From Chroococcidiopsis thermalis PCC 7203 (GTDB lineage Bacteria; Cyanobacteriota; Cyanobacteriia; Cyanobacteriales; Chroococcidiopsidaceae): a stretch of DNA of 64,000 nt. This document shows positions 2,398 through 12,645 of the stretch, one piece after another. Position 1 is the stretch's first letter. Every line of letters starts with the position of its first letter. The notes below the pieces were generated by a model. That model did no database searches, was not told where the DNA came from, and worked only from the letters and a program-made list of their open reading frames with translations. Position numbers and translations under genes: made by a program. The DNA is taken from NCBI RefSeq assembly GCF_000317125.1, contig NC_019695.1, positions 2,034,336 through 2,098,335 on the forward strand. The letters are read 5' to 3'.

Positions 2398-3207
2398 TCA
2401 ACCATCAACCAATTCACCCCGTAAAACTAAAACAGCTTGTCCTCCCAATAAAACCCGATCGCCTTGACAGCTAACTTTAATTACCCCACCTCTAGCAGAA
2501 GCTTGATAGGCGAGAAAATTATCTTTCCCCAAGCGATCGCGCCAGTAGGGTGCAAGGCAACAATGCGCCGAACCCGTCACCGGATCTTCGTCAATTCCGA
2601 CATTAGGCGCAAAGTAGCGAGAGACAAAATCATACTCTGAGTTTGTCCCTTGGCTGGTGACGATTACGCCTTGTACGGGCAAAGTTTTCAGTAAACTAAA
2701 ATCTGGCTGAAGATTTCTGACAATCTCCTCCGAATCTAATTCCACCAAATAATTTCTATTCGTCTCACCTACATACTTGGGTTTGGTTCCCAAAGCTTTG
2801 ATCAAATCGGCAGGTATTTCCGATGCAGCAGGAACTTGCATTGGGAAGTCTAATTCGATCCATTCTCCTATCCGTTTTGCCGTCAGCAAGCCACTGAGAG
2901 TGTGAAATCGAGCTGTTTCCTCTGGCTGCAAATAACCCTGTTCCCACAGCACATGAGCGCTAGCTAGGGTAGCATGACCGCACAGAGGAACTTCTGTAGC
3001 AGGAGTAAACCACCGCAGATTGTAGCTACCATCGTCTTGCCGGAGTAAGAAAGCCGTCTCTGATAAATTCATCTCCTTGGCAATATTTTGCATCCAACCG
3101 TCATCTCTCGATCGCGGCAGAACGCATACAGCAGCGGGATTACCTGCAAAAGGTTTATTTGTAAAAGCATCGACCTGAAAAATTTCTTGTCCCATTTCAG
3201 TTGTCAT
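2398..3207 (-). CDS. PhzF-family isomerase/epimerase
   Basis: Member of the PhzF/diaminopimelate-epimerase-fold family; the true substrate is unknown. The protein begins (M)GQEIFQVDAFTNKPFAGNP, a typical family N terminus, and has NLSETAFL with the family's catalytic Glu, the segment PLCGHATLASAHV, and a C-terminal DPVTGSAHC motif. In-frame sequence upstream of 3207 is not family-like and lies inside the preceding gene, so ATG 3207 (269 residues) is chosen; it forms an ATGA overlap with the stop of the DUF928 gene. ATG 3195 is an alternative. This is the last gene of the minus-strand operon starting with the sigma factor near 8.1 kb. Whether it belongs to that module functionally or is a rider is open. 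Confidence 0.85.
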   Translation of the reverse strand: MTTEMGQEIFQVDAFTNKPFAGNPAAVCVLPRSRDDGWMQNIAKEMNLSETAFLLRQDDGSYNLRWFTPATEVPLCGHATLASAHVLWEQGYLQPEETARFHTLSGLLTAKRIGEWIELDFPMQVPAASEIPADLIKALGTKPKYVGETNRNYLVELDSEEIVRNLQPDFSLLKTLPVQGVIVTSQGTNSEYDFVSRYFAPNVGIDEDPVTGSAHCCLAPYWRDRLGKDNFLAYQASARGGVIKVSCQGDRVLLGGQAVLVLRGELVDG

Positions 3208-3992
3208 GGCAAAAGTGGCTGAGATGACATATCGCTCAAATTGGCAGATTGTAAAAGCCCGTTCCAATTTGCCTTGAGAGCGGCATTTTCTGGCTGCTGT
3301 AAGCGCTGTTCGGCTATGGTGGCGATCGCGTCGTACCATAAGCCTTGTTGAGCGTAGAGATCGAGTCGTTGTTCGGGTGTGGCTGTCTTGAGTTTCGATC
3401 GCATCGTGGCGGTTGGCGATACGCGCTGTACCCATCCTTCGACGGAATCTTTGATCGCAATAGTAGAATCTTGGCGATCGCAACTGGCTGCTATTTCTGT
3501 TTTCAAAAACCAGTGATAGTTCTGATTGAGCTTAAGTGGCGGTTGGGTAGATGGTAAACGCACGCCGATGATGCCTGGTTTAGCTGGCAGTTCGACAGCA
3601 GAACGATAGACATCGTTATCGCGATCGTCTTGTAGGACGAATTCTACAGAACGGAGTGAAGGGTTGGCAGCAGGAATGTAAAACCAGAAAGTAGGATACT
3701 CGGCGATCGTCTGTCCCCAAACATACGTTGCTTTACCCGTGCCTACAGTCTTTTCTACGGCAGGTGCTAGCGCCGTTAGCGGCAGCTTGAAGCCGCAGTC
3801 TCCTCCTCGTCCGGCTGCGCCTCTAGTTCGTCCGGTGGGAGTGCCGGAGGTAGGAAAGGGTGGTGGCGTGTAACGGGGTTGAGTGCTGACTTGCTGGTGA
3901 GTGTGATTTTGACTGTTATTGTGGGTGGCGATCGCTGCTGTGGGTACGAGCATTGTGAAGGCGATCGCTGCTGTGGCTGCAAGCTTGTGCAT
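3204..3992 (-). CDS. DUF928 family exported protein
   Basis: A 262-residue protein with an N-terminal signal peptide (hydrophobic core about residues 5-22, Ala-rich) followed by a Pro/Thr/Gly-rich linker to about residue 65. The remaining segment, with features such as YVWGQTIAEYPTFWFYIP, VEFVLQDD and the C-terminal LAxxLYAQQGLWYDA-like region, matches the cyanobacterial DUF928 family. It is expected in the periplasm or thylakoid lumen. It starts 9 bp after the CHAT-CHASE2 stop, and its own stop overlaps the PhzF start. DUF928 genes are commonly found beside CHASE2 and DUF1822 genes in cyanobacteria, suggesting a partner role for the periplasmic CHASE2 domain; molecular function is unknown. 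Confidence 0.85.
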   Translation of the reverse strand: MHKLAATAAIAFTMLVPTAAIATHNNSQNHTHQQVSTQPRYTPPPFPTSGTPTGRTRGAAGRGGDCGFKLPLTALAPAVEKTVGTGKATYVWGQTIAEYPTFWFYIPAANPSLRSVEFVLQDDRDNDVYRSAVELPAKPGIIGVRLPSTQPPLKLNQNYHWFLKTEIAASCDRQDSTIAIKDSVEGWVQRVSPTATMRSKLKTATPEQRLDLYAQQGLWYDAIATIAEQRLQQPENAALKANWNGLLQSANLSDMSSQPLLP

Positions 3993-4001
3993 TATCTCAC
4001 C

Positions 4002-6380
4002 TCAATCTATCTTTAGTGTAGGTTTCAGCAGTAGATTGCTGCTATCGGGCAAAGAACGCTTGACGACCGCAATTCTGCCTCCCGTCACGACTAAAGCCAA
4101 AGCCGCAGGGACTAAAGGCAGCCAGCCACCTTGAAGTAGTAATATCCAACTCGAGCCATATAGAGCTGCAATTGTCAAGCAAACACTCAATCCCAATCGC
4201 GCGGGAGAACGCCAGCACCAAACAACAACTCCTCCCACCAACGACCAAGCCCAAATCCAAACAATCTCACCCCAGAGAGGCAAAACCCACAGTGGTGTCC
4301 GTCCGTCCAAAACAGCACTGAGGAGTTGACTCACCATCTGAGCTTGCAAATAAATACCTGGAATTTGTTTTTGCAGTCCCTGTCTGCCGATGCTGTAGGG
4401 AGTAGACCACGCATCACCAGTACTAGGAGCCGCTAGACCGATCAGTACAATCCTGTCTTTGAGGGTACGGGCAAGATTGGGCGGAATGCGATCGCTCAGT
4501 ATATCTCCTAGCGTCACTGCGACGGCAATATCGTCTACAGAGTCAAAGGGACGGTAATTGAGTAACAGTTGATAGCCTTTAGGATCGATTCTTTGATAAC
4601 CGCCCGTATGGAAAGGTTGCAAACGCGGAAAAACGACATTACCGAGTTGTAAGTTACCATTGGGCGTGAATCGAGTTTCAATTCCTTTCGCTGCCAAATA
4701 TTGATGAGCGAGTTGAAAACTGAGCGCGGTATTAGCACTACAACGGGATGTGAGTGGCGGATCGAAATTGAGCAAATGGCGGCGCACGATGTTGTCATCT
4801 GGATCGGCAATGACATCGCTAAAACCTATCCGTTCTGGCGCGACTTCTGGCGGGGGTTGAACGCCACGCGGATCGAATTCTGGATCGCTGACTTTACAGA
4901 TAGCAAAAAGGCGATCGCTTTTTTGGAGCCTTGACTTCAGACTTGGTAATTTCTCTACCGGAAAATCGCGGTAGATATCCAAACCGATAACTTGTGGGTG
5001 AAATTGTTCGAGTTTTTGCAACAGTTTTTCCAATGCCAAATCTGACAGAGAGCCTTTTCTCTGTTTCTGTTCTGGCAGCTGCAAATCTTCCTCTGTCACC
5101 GTCACAAGTAACAGACGCGGATCGGCTTTTTCTATAGGACGCAGCCGCATTAATTGGTCAAAAGCCTGCAATTCTATAGGTTGGAATAATCCTAATAACC
5201 TCATTCCTACCACCGCCGCCGTGACAATGGTGCTGGTGAAGAAGACGCGCCGCAGAGAAAGCCGTTGTCGTGGTGGACGTAGACGTTGCATCCACTGTTG
5301 CCAAGTTGGAGGAATTTCGGCAAGATTTTGATAAATGACTGGTAGCCAGCTAGCAGCAGGATATTCACTTTCCCATCCCTGGAGTCTTTCCCTTGCCTCT
5401 CGTACCGACAAATAGAGAGACTTTCCCCCGGCAAAAGCCTGGAGAAAACTCTTCAAAAATTCTTGCGCCACGCGATCCGGTACGGGTTCGCGCATGAATA
5501 CTACTTGGGGAATGTGCAAACTTGCCAAGTCCCGCGCCAAACCCAAGCCATCGCAAGAGTTAAAAATGGCTACGCTCAAACCATTTTCTACCGCAGTTTG
5601 TAAAGCGTGTTTGAGATCGGCAATAGTTAAACTTTCCGTTTGATTTAAATAAATTCTGCCTGTAACTTCATTCTGTGAGGCAGTTGTTTGACTGGCACTA
5701 TGTCCGGCAAAAAATAAAATATCCCATCCTTGGGTAGACCATAACTGACGGTCTAACTCTTGACGTGACGGCTCAACCAAAAACTTGACATCTGCTCCTG
5801 GCAAGGTTTCGAGCAAGTTACGGTCTGCTTGAATGTCAATTCCGGCACTACTACCTAAAATCGCTAAAATTCTGATTTGAGTGCGAGAGGATGTCGTTTT
5901 CAGCGCAATTTCTTCGTAAGCAGGGGTACTCAGGGCAATTTCTGCTTGAGGATAGCGAGCAAATAGATCGCAGCGATGCCAGGGTAGCCGCTGTAATAGT
6001 AAATCTTCAGTTTGCAAAATAACTCGAATTGCATCCGCAGGCATTAATTTTTCTAAAAACTTATCCCTTAAAGCAAGAAATGATGGAGAGGAAAGCCAAT
6101 TGTTTAGACTGCGGCTGAGGGATTCTGCGGCATTATAACAGTCTTCTAAAACACAAACATTCGTAATTTGGACGGCAGCGGCTTCCAGACGCGATCGCAA
6201 ACCCAAACTGTAGTAAGCTGATTGCCATTTTCTGTAGAGTTGCGGAATTTCCGGCTGGGGTGGTAATCTGCCAGCAAGTTCTACAGCGGGGCGATCGCCA
6301 TCCTCGCCAATTTGCAGCGTGACAGGAAATCCCTGCTCAAAGCTACCTTCGCCAAACTTCAAGACAACTAACTTACCCAC
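4002..6380 (-). CDS. CHAT-CHASE2 membrane protein (caspase-like protease fused to extracytoplasmic sensor)
   Basis: A 792-residue two-domain protein. Residues about 130-350 form a CHAT (caspase-HetF-associated with TPRs) domain with the putative catalytic dyad intact: His227 in ILFFAGHSAS and Cys276 in VAIFNSCDG. A transmembrane helix at about 378-400 leads to a CHASE2 domain (about 400-690; includes LLLVTVTEEDLQ, VIGLDIYRD and GLAAPSTGDAWSTPYS), then two or three membrane helices near 700-780. The inferred topology is a cytoplasmic protease controlled by a periplasmic sensor, the reverse of receptors in which CHASE2 precedes an output domain. It lies between the DUF1822 gene (45-bp gap) and the DUF928 gene (9-bp gap). 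Substrate and signal are unknown; architecture is confident. Confidence 0.9.
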   Translation of the reverse strand: MGKLVVLKFGEGSFEQGFPVTLQIGEDGDRPAVELAGRLPPQPEIPQLYRKWQSAYYSLGLRSRLEAAAVQITNVCVLEDCYNAAESLSRSLNNWLSSPSFLALRDKFLEKLMPADAIRVILQTEDLLLQRLPWHRCDLFARYPQAEIALSTPAYEEIALKTTSSRTQIRILAILGSSAGIDIQADRNLLETLPGADVKFLVEPSRQELDRQLWSTQGWDILFFAGHSASQTTASQNEVTGRIYLNQTESLTIADLKHALQTAVENGLSVAIFNSCDGLGLARDLASLHIPQVVFMREPVPDRVAQEFLKSFLQAFAGGKSLYLSVREARERLQGWESEYPAASWLPVIYQNLAEIPPTWQQWMQRLRPPRQRLSLRRVFFTSTIVTAAVVGMRLLGLFQPIELQAFDQLMRLRPIEKADPRLLLVTVTEEDLQLPEQKQRKGSLSDLALEKLLQKLEQFHPQVIGLDIYRDFPVEKLPSLKSRLQKSDRLFAICKVSDPEFDPRGVQPPPEVAPERIGFSDVIADPDDNIVRRHLLNFDPPLTSRCSANTALSFQLAHQYLAAKGIETRFTPNGNLQLGNVVFPRLQPFHTGGYQRIDPKGYQLLLNYRPFDSVDDIAVAVTLGDILSDRIPPNLARTLKDRIVLIGLAAPSTGDAWSTPYSIGRQGLQKQIPGIYLQAQMVSQLLSAVLDGRTPLWVLPLWGEIVWIWAWSLVGGVVVWCWRSPARLGLSVCLTIAALYGSSWILLLQGGWLPLVPAALALVVTGGRIAVVKRSLPDSSNLLLKPTLKID

Positions 6381-6425
6381 GATCTATCACCTGTAGGCAC
6401 GTCATTTTAAGTTGTAAGTCGTAAC

Positions 6426-7418
6426 TCAAATGATAAAGTGTTCGGTGATGCCAACATCCCCCAGAGCTACTTTAACGCTAAATCTTTCTCCGGTAGTACC
6501 GCTAAATTGCAACTGAATATAATTATCGGCGCGTCTGGCTTTAGCTTCCAAGAAAACTGAACCAGATTCATCCAAAACGATTAGCTGTAGCGACGGCGGT
6601 AAAAATGTCTCTCTCCCCGTCGGATGCACTTGTACGATCAGATCGGTTTTCTGCTCTGATGCAGGACGCAGTTCCATGACCAAAGCGACTGCATGACCAG
6701 CTAGCTGCATCCCTAAGTCAATTAACTTTGCCCGTCTGACAAAATTTTCAGGGCGATCCACTTCGTTTGTATTCAGTTCTTCTGTTTTACGAAAGCTAAA
6801 GGTTAAATTGTGTTCGGTTGGATTTAATAGCGAGACGACAGTTTGCCAACCTGGTTCAAACGTATTTTGGAACCACTGTCTCAAGTTAACCGTACTCGTG
6901 GGAGGATTCGCGTTAGCGAAGCTTAACGAAGTTATCGCGCTTAAGTCTTGCAAGTGGGACAATAGATCTTCCGGCGATCGCAACTGGTTAACGGTCAACT
7001 GTTCTTGGGTAACTTGCTGGACAAAACCCAGGATACAGACCTGTTTTTCTACTTCATCCAAACGCACGACAACATAACCGATCCGATCTTCCCAAACCTC
7101 CGGTGGCACGTAACAGGTAGAAGCATCAGTGGCGATCGCCCGACATTCCAGGCGACCCAAACCCAATACCTCCAAGTCTGCTGCATCCACACACGCACGC
7201 ATAAAAGGATTCCAACTATCGCACTCGTTCCAATTCACCGGAACGCCCATCATTTCCAAATAATCGCGGACGGCACACACAGCCAAGGTATTCAGTCGCA
7301 CTTGCTCTGCTTTTTGTGACGTTGGCTGCTGCTGGCTAAACTGCCAAGCAATGCTATTCGCGGCTTGAGTAATTGGTAACGGAAGGGAGCGATCGTTTTC
7401 TCGTGCTTGATAATTCAT
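6426..7418 (-). CDS. DUF1822 family protein
   Basis: A 330-residue soluble protein without signal peptide. Family hallmarks visible include the N-terminal stretch with LNTLAVCAVRDYLEMMGVPV, the segment CYVPPEVWEDRIGYVVVRLDE and the later DLGMQLAGHAVALVMELRP, typical of cyanobacterial DUF1822 proteins. Molecular function is unknown. Its ATG (7418) is 65 bp inside the 3' end of the sigma-factor gene in another frame, so the two are translationally close-coupled; the CHAT-CHASE2 gene follows. The consistent pairing suggests a regulatory partner (for example an anti-sigma-like or adaptor protein), but nothing in the sequence proves that. Confidence 0.85.
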   Translation of the reverse strand: MNYQARENDRSLPLPITQAANSIAWQFSQQQPTSQKAEQVRLNTLAVCAVRDYLEMMGVPVNWNECDSWNPFMRACVDAADLEVLGLGRLECRAIATDASTCYVPPEVWEDRIGYVVVRLDEVEKQVCILGFVQQVTQEQLTVNQLRSPEDLLSHLQDLSAITSLSFANANPPTSTVNLRQWFQNTFEPGWQTVVSLLNPTEHNLTFSFRKTEELNTNEVDRPENFVRRAKLIDLGMQLAGHAVALVMELRPASEQKTDLIVQVHPTGRETFLPPSLQLIVLDESGSVFLEAKARRADNYIQLQFSGTTGERFSVKVALGDVGITEHFII

Positions 7419-8070
7419 GATAGGTATCCTCTAAATACCCTTGCGATTCGCCGAATTTACGCAATCGTGGTAGGCATTGTCGCCGATAGAAACTACTCAG
7501 TGTCGAAACGGACAGCTTGTATTGCGCTGCTAAATCTTCCCAGCTTGTCTCTGGTGGCAGCCTTTGTAACAATAAAACTTGGCAATTCACCTTTGGATAA
7601 CCTTGAATATAAGTACGGCGGAGGTCGCCATCAGGATCGGTTTGAATCCACTTTCGTGTCGTTTCCAAAATTGGTGGGACATCGGGCGGAGCTTCCAAGG
7701 CTTCAATCGCGTCTTTCCCCAGCTCGTCAACAGAATAGACTTGTCTAGTTGTCGAGTTATTGGTAGTCTTTCTTTGCAGGTATAGGTCTTGCAGCCGTCG
7801 CCGCAAATATGCATTTAACCAAGTCGTGATACTACTACGACTGGGATCGTAGCGATCGCCTGTCGTAGCTTCACACAGGTTACGGCAGAAATACAGCCAG
7901 GTTTGTTGTAAGGCATCCTCGTAATCGGGAGTATTTTCTTTCCACAGCTTGCCAGACTTGGCAATCGAGCGGACAATTCTCGTTAAACCTCGCTGGCGAT
8001 CGAGACTACCGATCTTCTGCTGACAAGTTTCTACGACCAATTGACGCAGACTCACCTCAAATTCTTCCAT
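7354..8070 (-). CDS. Sigma-70 family (ECF-like) RNA polymerase sigma factor
   Basis: Small group-3/ECF-like sigma factor. Region 2 is recognisable in DYEDALQQTWLYFCRNL and YDPSRSSITTWLNAYLRRRL (core and -10 binding), and a region-4 helix-turn-helix in SWEDLAAQYKLSVSTLSSFYRRQ. ATG 8070 gives 238 residues; a GTG at 8139 would add 23 residues, and a GGAGGTGAG sequence lies further upstream at about 8158-8166, so the start is uncertain. It is the first gene of the operon with DUF1822, CHAT-CHASE2, DUF928 and PhzF. A sigma factor beside a membrane protease-sensor suggests regulated release or stabilisation of the sigma factor, but this is inference. Confidence 0.88.
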   Translation of the reverse strand: MEEFEVSLRQLVVETCQQKIGSLDRQRGLTRIVRSIAKSGKLWKENTPDYEDALQQTWLYFCRNLCEATTGDRYDPSRSSITTWLNAYLRRRLQDLYLQRKTTNNSTTRQVYSVDELGKDAIEALEAPPDVPPILETTRKWIQTDPDGDLRRTYIQGYPKVNCQVLLLQRLPPETSWEDLAAQYKLSVSTLSSFYRRQCLPRLRKFGESQGYLEDTYHELSSTRKRSLPSVTNYSSRE

Positions 8071-8139
8071 AACAGTATTTTTTATTTGTCTCTCCAGCAG
8101 GGGTATGTTTATTTTCGAGGAAAAATCCTCTGAAATCAC

Positions 8140-8342: not shown

Positions 8343-8640
8343 TCAAGCCGCCAAGCTATAGGAAAGAGTCATCTGTAGAGCCATCGGCGCATCTGTGGTA
8401 GACTCAAGGGAATGAGAATCTCGCGTGGCATTGAACTGGGCGAGACTGTTGCTGTTGGAAGGCATCGTCCAGTTGTTGTGGGCATTGACCAAGGGTTCTG
8501 TCTGATGACGCAACACAACCAGAAATGCTTGAGCCGCTAATACCAACGTCATGTGGCGTAGCCAACCATGCCAAGAGCGGACTTCGTATTCACCCAAGCC
8601 TAATTGATATGAAGCAATTTTGAAACACTCGAAAATGCTT
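8343..8640 (-). pseudogene. IS701-type transposase, C-terminal remnant
   Basis: Only the C-terminal part of a DDE transposase survives. The minus-strand translation contains ECFKIASYQLGLGEYEVR, then SWHGWLRHMTLVLAAQAFL, the conserved tail of IS701/DDE_5-type cyanobacterial transposases where a Glu-containing ECF motif precedes a YEVRSW-x-G-W segment. It is cut at about 8640, exactly where the reading frame of the oppositely oriented DUF1998 helicase remnant begins, so insertion or deletion joined the two. No terminal repeats are evident. It is inactive. Confidence 0.8.
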
Positions 8641-10310
8641 TACTTGGGTTTGACCGAGCCTGCGATCGCTGGCGCAAACTCTATGGTGATGCCGTATTTC
8701 AATTGCAAGCAGCTCGACAAACTGTAGATCGTTCTACCAAAGGTGGCGTGACTCAAGAGGAACGCAAGCTAGCCCAAACGCAAGAGCGAGAAGCCCAAAG
8801 GCAAATCGATCTGCTGGTGGGGCAAGTCAGCCCGAATCAAAGTAAAACTCAGTTAGAGTTTTACCCTTACCGTTACTTTGCTGCCGAAGGCTTTCTACCA
8901 GGATATAACTTTCCCCGTCTCTCAGTCCGCGCTTACATCCCTGCTGGCGATGCAGGTAGATTTGTCTCTCGTCCCCGCGTGGTAGCAATTCGCGAATTTG
9001 CTCCTAGTAATGTCGTTTACTACGAAGGGTCGAAATTTCAAATTGCCAAAATGCGAGTTCCCGTGGGTGGAATCGAGGGTAAATACGTCCGCGTCAGCGT
9101 TTGTCCTAGCTGCGGCTACTTCCATGAGGGAGATGATTCCCTACGCGACACTTGTGAAAACTGCGGTGCAAAGATTGTCGCCGATCGCGATGGCAACCCT
9201 GGCAAACTCAATCGCGTGCTAGAAGTAGAGACGATGATAACCCGCAGGCGGGAACGGATTACTTGTGACGAGGAAGAACGGCTCAAGTACGGTTACAACG
9301 TCACGACACATTTTCGCTATGCGCCGCAAAAGCAAGAGATAGCAACAGTCATAGCAGCGGATGGAACGCAGCTATTGCAGTTAATCTATGGTGAAACGGC
9401 AAAATTGCGGCGGATCGATCGGGGCTTGAGACGCGATCGTACCGAGCGCGGATTTAAGTTAGATGCAGCAACAGGAGTGTAGGGCGATCGCTCTACGAAT
9501 GAAACATCCCAAGAGAATCTACAAACAGAAGTCAACCTGATGGTAGATGATACTTCTAATATCCTCGTAGTCGAACCAGTTAACATTCCTACTGGGAATT
9601 CTGAGGCATTTCTCGCCACTCTCCAGTTTGCTCTAGAACGAGCCATCCAAGCAGTATATAAACTCGAAGCGGACGAACTAGCCTCCGAGCGCTTGGGTCA
9701 AGGGCAACACTTACTTTTTTGGGAAGCCGCCCAAGGAGGAGCAGGCGTTCTTTCCCAAATACTCGAAGACCCTGATGCTTTCAAGCGGCTTGCAAATGCT
9801 GCGTTAGATATTTGTCACTTCTTACAAGAGAAGCAAAGCTGTACGAAAGCTTGTTATCAATGCCTGTTATCCTACCGCAATCAGTTCGATCATCCATTGT
9901 TAGATCGCTACCTAATTCGCCCTTGGTTGGATCGGCTTGGTAGCAGTACCATCACTCGTCAAGCCGCAAATGGTTCTCGTGAAGCTCAGTACCAGCAATT
10001 ATTACAGCAGACAGATCCCAACTCTAATTTTGAGCGAATTGTCTTAGCAGAGATCGATCGACGGGGGTTAAAACTACCGGATACTGCTCAAGAGTTAATT
10101 CCTGAAGCTAACTCTAAACCAGACTTTATCTACAGGAATGCCAAGGTTGCTATTTTCTGCGATGGCTCGGCTCACGATCGCCCAGAACAACAGCAACAAG
10201 ACAAAATTGAGCGCGATAATCTCAGATATGTATCTGGCTACTATGTCTTAACCCTACGACATGATGAGGATTGGCAAACCAAGTTAGAAATCTTAGCTTC
10301 TTTATTGTAA
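8631..10310 (+). pseudogene. DUF1998 helicase C-terminal part with zinc ribbon and nuclease-like tail, 5'-truncated and interrupted by TAG
   Basis: C-terminal region of a large superfamily-2 helicase of the kind found in defence islands (DISARM DrmA/DrmB-like and related). Features in order: FYPYRYFAAEGFLPGYNFPR; a zinc ribbon with CPSCGYF and CENCG; an in-frame TAG at 9480-9482; then a DUF1998 region with FWEAAQGGAGVLSQ and the Cys cluster CTKACYQCLLSYRNQFDH; finally a DUF559/Vsr-like nuclease segment (KPDFIYRNAKVAIFCDGSAH). Frame is identical before and after the TAG, so one substitution splits the gene. There is no helicase core or start: the 5' end is fused to the IS701 remnant at about 8631. 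Called a pseudogene; a separate downstream product from ATG 9540 cannot be excluded. Confidence 0.82.
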
Positions 10311-10780: not shown

Positions 10781-12645
10781 ATGGAACTAGAAATCCTTCT
10801 CGAAAAACTCGATTTTATTGAAGACTACGATCTTGAATTTAAAACGTCCGAAGATAATTTACCTAAAGATATTTGGAAAACGATATCTGCTTTTGCCAAT
10901 ACTAAGGGCGGATATATTATTTTGGGAGTAACAGAGAAAAGAGGTAGTTTTTTTATCACCGGAGTCAATAACTCAATTTTGCAGAAAAAAGACTTTTGGA
11001 ATAATCACAACAATCCTCAAAAGCTAAGTTTTCCCATTTGTAATGAATCAGACTTTACGATCGCTCACATTGATGAGAAAGACGTAATTATTATTAAGGT
11101 TTCTCAAGCAAGCCGAACTCAACGTCCCGTTTATATCAATAACAATCCTATGATAGGGACATATAAACGTAACTACGATGGCGACTATCTTTGTCGTGAA
11201 GATGAAGTACGTCAAATGCTACGAGATGCGAGTAGCGAACCTCAAGACTACCGAGTATTAGACAATTTTGATCTTAACGATCTCGATCTAGAGACAATGA
11301 AAGCCTTTCGTCAACGCTTTCGATCGAGAAAACCAGATCACCCTTTCTTAGCATTAGACGATCGAGAATTACCTATAAACTAGGAGGTTGGAAAAGCGAC
11401 CGCAATACACATAAAGAAGGATTAACCCTTGCAGGTTTACTAATGTTTGGTCGAGAACGCAGTATTTTAGATGCTTGTCCTCATTATCACCTTGATTATC
11501 AAGAAAAACGTTCCTCCGATCTTGAAGAACGTTGGACATATCGTGTAACTCTCGATGGTGAATGGGAAGCTAACTTATTTAACTTTTATTATCGTGTTTA
11601 TGGACGTTTAGTAAGTGATATTGACGTTCCTTTTAAATTAGATAAAAATTCAGTACGGCAAGGAGAAACTCATGTACATGAAGCTTTAAGAGAGGCATTA
11701 TCTAATACTTTAATTCATGCAGATCACTCTTCTACAAAACCCTTGACTATTATTAAATCTAAAGATAGTTTCTTATTTTCTAATCCAGGTCGTCTAAGAA
11801 TACCTATTGATAAAGTTTATGAAGGTGGAGTTAGCGATCCACGAAATCCCAATTTACAAAAAATGTTTCAGATGGTTGGTTTAGGAGACAAAGCAGGTTC
11901 GGGGTTTCCTAAAATCTTACGAGCATGGAAAGAACAACAATGGATATATCCAAGAGTTTTGGAAAATTTAGATTTAGATATGACAACAGTTGCTCTACCA
12001 ATGATCAGCTTAATTCCTAAAGACGTTGAGAAAGAGCTACGAGAAGTTGTTGGGGATAACTATTGCAACTTATCACAATTAGATCGAATCATTTTAGTCT
12101 TAGCTCATCGTCTAGGACAAATCAGTAATAGCGATATCCAATGCTATAGCCAAAAACACCCTAGAGATATTGGTGATTGTCTCAAAAACCTAGTAGATAA
12201 TGGTTGGCTAGAAAAATCAGGACATGGTAGAGGTACATATTACACCTTACCCAATGACACTCAAACCGATTTATTCTCCTTACTTCCTCAATCAGATCAA
12301 CCAAGCTCCGATCATTTGCAACCAAGCTCCGATCATTTGCAACCAAGCTCCGATCATTTGCAACCAAGCTCCGATCCTTGGGGAAAATTAATTGCGATCG
12401 CAACCCCTGTTAGAGAAAAAGGAAAAGTATCCCAAGAGCTTATGGAGCAAACAATTCTGGAACTTTGCCAAGATCGATATTTAACTCAACAACAACTAGC
12501 AAATATCTTAAATCGTTCCCCACATACCCTAAGAACAAGTTATCTAACCAAAATGGTTAAAGAAGGAGCATTAGAGTTGAAATATCCAGATAAACCAACT
12601 CATCCAAATCAAGGCTATCAAACTCGTCAAAACCCTAAGCTATGA
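10781..12645 (+). pseudogene. AlbA_2 (Schlafen-like) / ATP-binding regulator, frameshifted
   Basis: One gene split into two frames. The 5' part (10781-11383, 200 residues) is an AlbA_2/Schlafen-type domain (YDLEFKTSEDNLPKDIWKT, then SAFANTKGGYIILGV). The 3' part, open in the +2 frame from about 11374, continues the family with LGGWKSDRNTHKEGLTLAGL, a GHKL-like region (VHEALREALSNTLIHADHS; VGLGDKAGSGFPKI), a winged-helix segment and a C-terminal helix-turn-helix. A missing base near 11372-11373 explains the break. Such proteins are usually transcriptional regulators or defence-associated factors. AT-richer and HIP1-poorer than its neighbours, it looks acquired. It ends convergently against the TniQ remnant. 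Sequencing error or programmed frameshifting are alternatives to true inactivation. Confidence 0.8.
12301..12377 (+). repeat. 21-bp in-frame tandem repeat encoding PSSDHLQ units
   Basis: Three exact copies of a 21-bp unit starting CCAAGCTCCGATCATTTGC, plus a partial fourth, encode a heptapeptide repeat (PSSDHLQ) in the linker before the last helix-turn-helix of the AlbA_2-type protein. The repeat is frame-preserving and likely prone to copy-number change by slippage. Confidence 0.9.

Follow-up and report, generated by a model that had tools for sequence, protein, structure and literature searches.

A minus-strand operon at positions 2398-8139 of a 64,000-nucleotide stretch of Chroococcidiopsis thermalis PCC 7203 (contig NC_019695.1, positions 2,034,336 to 2,098,335; hereafter the window) encodes a divergent extracytoplasmic function (ECF)-like sigma factor, a DUF1822 protein, a caspase-like CHAT protease fused to a CHASE2 sensor, a DUF928 protein and a PhzF-family isomerase. 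A survey of cyanobacterial gene neighbourhoods supports the first four as one conserved functional unit. For this unit, the favoured reading, to which a probability just short of even is given, is that a membrane-receptor caspase controls the alternative sigma factor via cleavage of DUF1822. A family to which the system belongs, in a CHASE2/DUF928 version, had already been predicted (Kaur et al., 2021; PMC8195603); the coupling of CHASE2 to DUF928, the existence of sigma-DUF1822 pairs without a protease and a candidate cleavage site in DUF1822 are new here.

Operon anatomy

The original prediction, made from the DNA alone, had described five tightly packed minus-strand open reading frames (ORFs). 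All were found where claimed and with the spacing claimed, namely a 65-bp overlap between the sigma factor and DUF1822 genes, gaps of 45 bp and 9 bp, and an ATGA overlap at the last junction. The features of the operon are as follows.

7354-8139, minus strand: divergent ECF-like sigma factor (regions 2 and 4), conserved part from about 8070
6426-7418, minus strand: DUF1822 protein (PF08852, 6.8e-85; AlphaFold2 model), predicted to partner the sigma factor and to be the substrate of the protease
6750-6815, minus strand: disordered linker of DUF1822, residues 202-223 (predicted local distance difference test score, pLDDT, below 50)
6789-6791, minus strand: Arg210 codon; in the candidate CHAT cleavage site F209-R210-K211 this residue is the putative P1 position (conservation, linker motif)
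4002-6380, minus strand: CHAT caspase-like protease and CHASE2 sensor in one protein (CHAT module about 1-365, CHASE2 about 386-718), transmembrane helices flanking the sensor (Pfam, hydropathy)
5700-5702, minus strand: codon of the predicted catalytic His227 (FFAGHS), invariant in 17 homologues
5553-5555, minus strand: codon of the predicted catalytic Cys276 (FNSCDG), invariant in 17 homologues
3204-3992, minus strand: DUF928 secreted protein, predicted periplasmic partner of CHASE2 (PF06051, 1.7e-58; hydrophobic residues 4-22)
2398-3207, minus strand: PhzF-family isomerase, in ATGA overlap with DUF928 (PF02567, PhzC-PhzF, 8.6e-71); outside the conserved unit

Pfam further matched CHASE2 (2.9e-60), CHAT (9.2e-15) and, under the Pfam cut-off, Sigma70_r2 (5.3e-4). 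The start of PhzF was corrected to the ATG at 3207 from the TTG at 3483. The conserved portion of the sigma protein begins at Met24 (ATG at about 8070), and hence the GTG at 8139 may lie upstream of the true start.

Conservation of the gene order

The survey comprised 172 cyanobacterial DUF1822 loci from whole genomes and named contigs, grouped into 78 clusters at 60% identity, with cluster counts of downstream genes taken from loci with complete downstream flanks. The order sigma-DUF1822-CHAT/CHASE2-DUF928 is present in 32 of the 78 clusters and, lacking an adjacent sigma gene, in two more; CHAT/CHASE2 is followed by DUF928 within the operon in 34 clusters. CHAT occurs without CHASE2 in 14 clusters, DUF928 accompanying it in none (0/14), and sigma-DUF1822 occurs with neither an adjacent CHAT gene nor DUF928 in 21. 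A divergent ECF-like sigma gene precedes DUF1822 at nearly all of the 172 loci, the exception being Nostoc. The genome of C. thermalis itself harbours a second sigma-DUF1822-CHAT/CHASE2-DUF928 operon (L015), without PhzF, as well as a protease-free sigma-DUF1822 pair (L014) and a DUF928 gene with a CHASE2-Ser/Thr kinase gene behind it (L017).

The arrangement of these four genes thus goes far beyond chance and recurs both across cyanobacteria and as a second genomic copy. The original prediction had staked itself on conservation outside this strain, and there the four-gene order proved widespread; its five-gene operon stands for these four genes, borne out by the survey and the second copy, and fails for PhzF, which appears in none of the other neighbourhoods examined. 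On the evidence of L014, L017 and L015, the operon splits into two modules, sigma with DUF1822 and CHASE2 with DUF928. The former pairing, likewise foreseen, is borne out by the cluster survey, and since 21 clusters (and L014) join the two genes without CHAT, DUF1822 is bound to the sigma factor more closely than to the protease.

Several further arrangements were observed around these genes. In many Nostocales, a TPR-CHAT gene lies between sigma and DUF1822, joined at L049 by a TPS-secretion gene, or the sigma gene is found elsewhere in the genome, at times with the TPR-CHAT gene still beside it (L168:4006-8945, L049:7995-15819, L112:1671-8924 and L251 for the two arrangements together); at L015 DUF928 and a TPR-CHAT gene are convergent. 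Such TPR-CHAT and TPS-secretion neighbours are possible targets (regulon members) or extra components. Several Nostoc (L135, L137, L145, L148, L155, L165) carry two divergent DUF1822-CHAT/CHASE2-DUF928 operons with a single sigma gene between them, common to both. Upstream of the protease-free pair, on the same strand, is a FecR-domain gene (L014:2010-6064), which recalls the FecR partners of signalling operons.

The CHAT protease and its exchangeable sensors

In line with the assignment of CHAT as a protease, the predicted His-Cys dyad (His227/Cys276) is intact here and invariant in the homologues. The proposed topology, which puts CHAT and CHASE2 on opposite sides of the membrane, agrees with hydropathy: a transmembrane segment (379-397) lies ahead of CHASE2 and hydrophobic C-terminal stretches (731-773) lie behind it, and on the basis of these flanking stretches CHAT is predicted to be cytoplasmic and CHASE2 extracytoplasmic. 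CHASE2 itself scores 204.4 bits (cut-off 26.3), and with the helices on either side the protein has the make-up of a CHASE2 receptor.

Across the surveyed proteins, a constant CHAT module of about 365 residues bears C-termini as varied as CHASE2, Peripla_BP_6/ANF-receptor and nSTAND1-WD40, along with weak matches to HEAT and PsbP-like domains. Pentapeptide repeats precede the CHAT module in one protein encoded beside a DUF1822 gene. In the tree of the module, the sensor changed at least four times. A single constant module with such varied sensors argues for interchangeable inputs feeding one output.

Two known classes were considered and rejected. HetF shares the CHAT domain with its His-Cys dyad, but the operon protein reaches 22.5 bits against an NCBIfam CellDiv_HetF cut-off of 1200; HetF is not known to be part of any sigma/DUF1822 operon. 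Membership of a known defence system was rejected as no PADLOC model matches the operon.

DUF1822 and its candidate cleavage site

The AlphaFold2 model of DUF1822 (mean pLDDT 83; predicted template modelling score, pTM, 0.53) comprises an alpha/beta N-domain (8-200), the disordered linker and a C-terminal Ig-like sandwich (about 227-330). Sequence search against the PDB returned nothing, and fold matches were confined to the Ig-like C-domain (residues 225-330), at a middling Z of up to 7.6. Among them is a weak match to the sensor domain of the anti-sigma factor RsgI4, at a middling Z common to many Ig-like proteins.

Within the linker, which is otherwise variable in sequence and length, Arg210 is 98% conserved in DUF1822 proteins that accompany CHAT-CHASE2. 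A hydrophobic-Arg-small/polar motif occurs in the linkers of 54 of 56 CHAT-CHASE2 partners (shuffled linkers: mean 17, maximum 28) and of 16 of 17 partners of other CHAT proteins (mean 6.8, maximum 13), falling to 9 of 21 where there is no adjacent CHAT (mean 4.7, maximum 10). Most protease-free proteins constitute one well-supported clade of the DUF1822 tree, adjoining CHAT-bearing relatives that keep the motif, and for this reason a joint loss of the motif and CHAT, essentially in one event, is probable. Outside animals, caspase-fold proteases frequently act on sites with arginine at the first cleaved position. Arg210 in F209-R210-K211 is put forward, from sequence comparison, as a candidate CHAT cleavage site, and because DUF1822 bears this site it is favoured over the sigma factor as the predicted target of the protease.

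Sigma factor and promoters

A profile of 60 sigma homologues compared with the PDB retrieved the ECF factors SigK (4nqw, E 0.006) first and SigE (2q1z, 0.07) next. Sigma70_r4_2 was matched by 10 of these homologues, Sigma70_r2 by five and Sigma70_ECF by two. This evidence, weak but consistent, identifies the operon protein, at the level of sequence profiles, as a divergent ECF-like factor with regions 2 and 4 only. In the protease-free pair the sigma factor is longer, and it matches region 4 clearly (4.5e-10) and region 2 weakly; profile comparison gave no support for homology between the short and long classes.

In the sister sigma subgroup, which includes the second operon of C. thermalis, a motif sampler found GTTTTGTAAC-N15-TGTGTAAA-like sites upstream of the sigma gene. 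The strict form (TTTTGTAAC-N15-GTGTAAA-like) is present in 5 of 30 upstream regions of this subgroup (L003, L063, L099, L100, L181) vs 0.0008 expected per region, and is a candidate autoregulated promoter. When the C. thermalis genome was searched for a regulon with this motif, the second operon alone stood out, other matches being at control level.

Upstream of the operon in the window, a short ORF (8343-8597) resembles a transposase remnant by eye and has no Pfam match; it may limit or alter the promoter region of the operon.

DUF928 and CHASE2

Counted per CHAT protein, DUF928 accompanies 108 of 113 CHASE2 proteins (none in the other five) and 0 of 22 proteins without CHASE2, which bears out the pairing that had been proposed from the window. 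Four of the five exceptions are from Moorena, where a different gene follows. In the tree of the CHAT module, DUF928 and CHASE2 change together in all four well-supported independent pairs (4/4; sign test p 0.125, limited by the number of pairs). Furthermore, among 150 DUF928 matches listed from 59 cyanobacterial genomes, at least 58 have CHASE2 no more than 4 kb away, for which the chance expectation in these genomes is estimated at below 1; CHASE2 is nearby at 7 of 40 other DUF928 loci sampled. DUF928 thus pairs with CHASE2 beyond this operon, yet has other contexts too. An earlier report had noted a DUF928-CHASE2 neighbourhood with WD40 genes in one Nostoc (PMC5587647).

The DUF928 protein has a signal-like hydrophobic N-terminal stretch (residues 4-22), and its model (mean pLDDT 84, pTM 0.78) consists of an Ig-like sandwich (78-190) followed by four helices (195-249). 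The closest fold is the C-terminal domain of MtxA (4z29; Z 9.6, root-mean-square deviation 4.1 over 150 residues, sequence identity 12%), the next match having a Z of 6.7. MtxA of Magnetospirillum combines Ig-like and TPR parts with a signal peptide, and in magnetotactic bacteria a CHASE2-adenylate cyclase gene follows it (PMC4439547). DUF928 thus resembles MtxA in its predicted fold and its context, as a probably secreted Ig-like and helical protein encoded beside a CHASE2 receptor, a likeness of structure rather than of sequence. The systems differ in that the MtxA output is a cyclase, and in that the CHASE2 gene comes after mtxA whereas DUF928 usually comes after CHASE2. A periplasmic LysM/FecR protein is similarly paired with a CHASE2 histidine kinase in a Burkholderia operon (PMC5192318).

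Relation to known systems

A published family of EACC2-caspase proteins, whose variable C-termini include CHASE2, is encoded in neighbourhoods that mostly contain an ECF sigma factor and DUF1822, and was proposed to act by autoproteolysis with a transcriptional output (Kaur et al., 2021, eLife; PMC8195603). The same authors count the family with systems of conflict and apoptosis. Judged from the published description, the operon shares the ECF sigma and DUF1822 neighbour genes, the constant N-terminal caspase-fold module with an intact dyad and, across the surveyed CHAT proteins, the variable C-terminal domain, though no EACC2 match is among the Pfam matches listed for its proteins. The term DUF928 is absent from the main text of that article, whose passages on the family mention neither DUF928 nor a DUF1822 cleavage site nor protease-free sigma-DUF1822 pairs. 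In those passages DUF1822 is called a TPR protein, whereas in the model presented here an alpha/beta N-domain is combined with an Ig-like C-domain.

A proven analogue is Craspase, a type III-E CRISPR system (Csx29 TPR-CHAT, Csx30, CASP-sigma), in which the CHAT protease cuts the two-domain protein Csx30 and relieves inhibition of the ECF sigma factor CASP-sigma (PMC10028731). A CHAT protease, an ECF sigma factor and a two-domain partner with a flexible linker are encoded at one locus in either case. However, the operon proteins include no Cas7-11, no other Cas gene product and no TPR match, so that the operon falls outside Craspase; moreover, the input there is RNA and here a fused sensor, and similarity of DUF1822 to Csx30 was not detected. 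Csx30 does not appear among the sequence or fold matches listed for DUF1822, a comparison that hardly covered the N-domain. The original claim of an undescribed system consequently has to yield to the family reported in 2021 and to the proven sigma switch of Craspase, and survives for the new features named at the outset.

Proposed mechanism and alternatives

In the mechanism proposed, DUF928 would be exported and, as its co-occurrence and fold suggest, would act with extracytoplasmic CHASE2 as a co-receptor or ligand carrier. The signal would cross the membrane and activate the cytoplasmic CHAT His-Cys protease, which would cut DUF1822 after the conserved arginine of its disordered linker, the predicted site. 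DUF1822 would be a dedicated sigma partner that probably keeps the sigma factor inactive through its N-terminal domain; its cutting would free the sigma factor to drive a regulon to which, in the sister subgroup, the sigma operon itself probably belongs. The modular build suggests that the signal would pass from a CHASE2 sensor joined by DUF928, or from a different sensor domain, to CHAT, DUF1822, the sigma factor and transcription. Craspase provides an experimental precedent for such a switch (PMC10028731). With somewhat less confidence, it may be extended to a general cyanobacterial class in which exchangeable sensors govern a caspase-like protease that cuts the sigma inhibitor DUF1822 at a hydrophobic-Arg site, a CRISPR-free counterpart of Craspase with an MtxA-like co-receptor, DUF928, in its CHASE2 version.

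Several observations weigh against this mechanism. The fold search recognised no known anti-sigma fold among the matches listed for DUF1822. Without an adjacent CHAT gene, the arginine column is still arginine in 17 of 21 DUF1822 proteins, and as it is mainly the preceding hydrophobic residue that is lost, Arg210 may have another role; the independent-pair test of coupling between linker motif and CHAT was uninformative, with too few events (essentially one clade-level loss). For the sigma subgroup of the window itself no promoter motif emerged, the sampler settling on coding sequence and GCGATCGC repeats, and the sister-subgroup motif had 0 matches upstream of 34 window-type sigma genes. At most of the 40 sampled loci DUF928 lies away from CHASE2, and in many Nostoc the sigma gene is elsewhere in the genome, away from DUF1822.

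The retained arginine is also one ground for an alternative that we regard as unlikely, though the strongest of its kind: DUF1822 would be a positive cofactor or adaptor bringing the sigma factor to membrane CHAT-CHASE2, the substrate of CHAT would be the sigma factor, CHAT itself or a different target, and there would be no anti-sigma protein. The site might then bind rather than be cut in most CHAT-free DUF1822 proteins; the termini of the sigma factor itself vary, and autoproteolytic activation has been proposed for the family (Kaur et al., 2021; PMC8195603). Nevertheless, the near-universal occurrence of the hydrophobic-Arg-small motif with CHAT is most simply that of a substrate site, and Craspase and RseA-type switches are precedents for cutting a sigma inhibitor (PMC10028731). 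Less likely again is a scheme in which CHAT-CHASE2 serves as a protease of execution or defence while sigma with DUF1822 merely govern expression of the operon, so that information flows from the sigma factor to the protease. The published grouping of the family with systems of conflict and apoptosis (Kaur et al., 2021; PMC8195603) speaks for it, as does the promoter upstream of sigma in the subgroup of the second operon (five of 30 regions), through which the operon may be its own target; yet sensor swapping affects the protease and not the sigma factor, no PADLOC defence model matches, and in 21 clusters sigma-DUF1822 has no adjacent protease. That all five genes including PhzF form one pathway is highly improbable: apart from the ATGA overlap of DUF928 and PhzF, the survey contradicts it, PhzF being seen only in the window and absent from the second operon and all other neighbourhoods examined, which makes it a local bystander. 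Cleavage of DUF1822 by the membrane-receptor caspase thus stays the favoured reading.

Neighbouring genes

Beyond the short upstream ORF, two ORFs in different frames (8703-10310) resemble pieces of the C-terminus of one MrfA-type (MZB Zn-binding) helicase and probably represent a broken or truncated gene. At 10781-12645, a stop or frameshift divides an AlbA_2/Schlafen-type regulator with a RecG-like ATPase C-terminal part into two ORFs. The region 45-2368 carries plus-strand genes, convergent to the operon, whose products by eye are probably the large subunit of a bidirectional hydrogenase, the protease that matures it, and HypA.

Implications

If the proposed mechanism is true, caspase-like proteases would serve cyanobacteria as ordinary signal transducers and not only in cell death or CRISPR immunity, with a single output stage accepting exchangeable sensors. 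The uncharacterised families DUF1822 and DUF928 would gain functions, and the orphan CHASE2 sensor domain a named partner. Arg210 would be the single residue on which the entire model stands testable.

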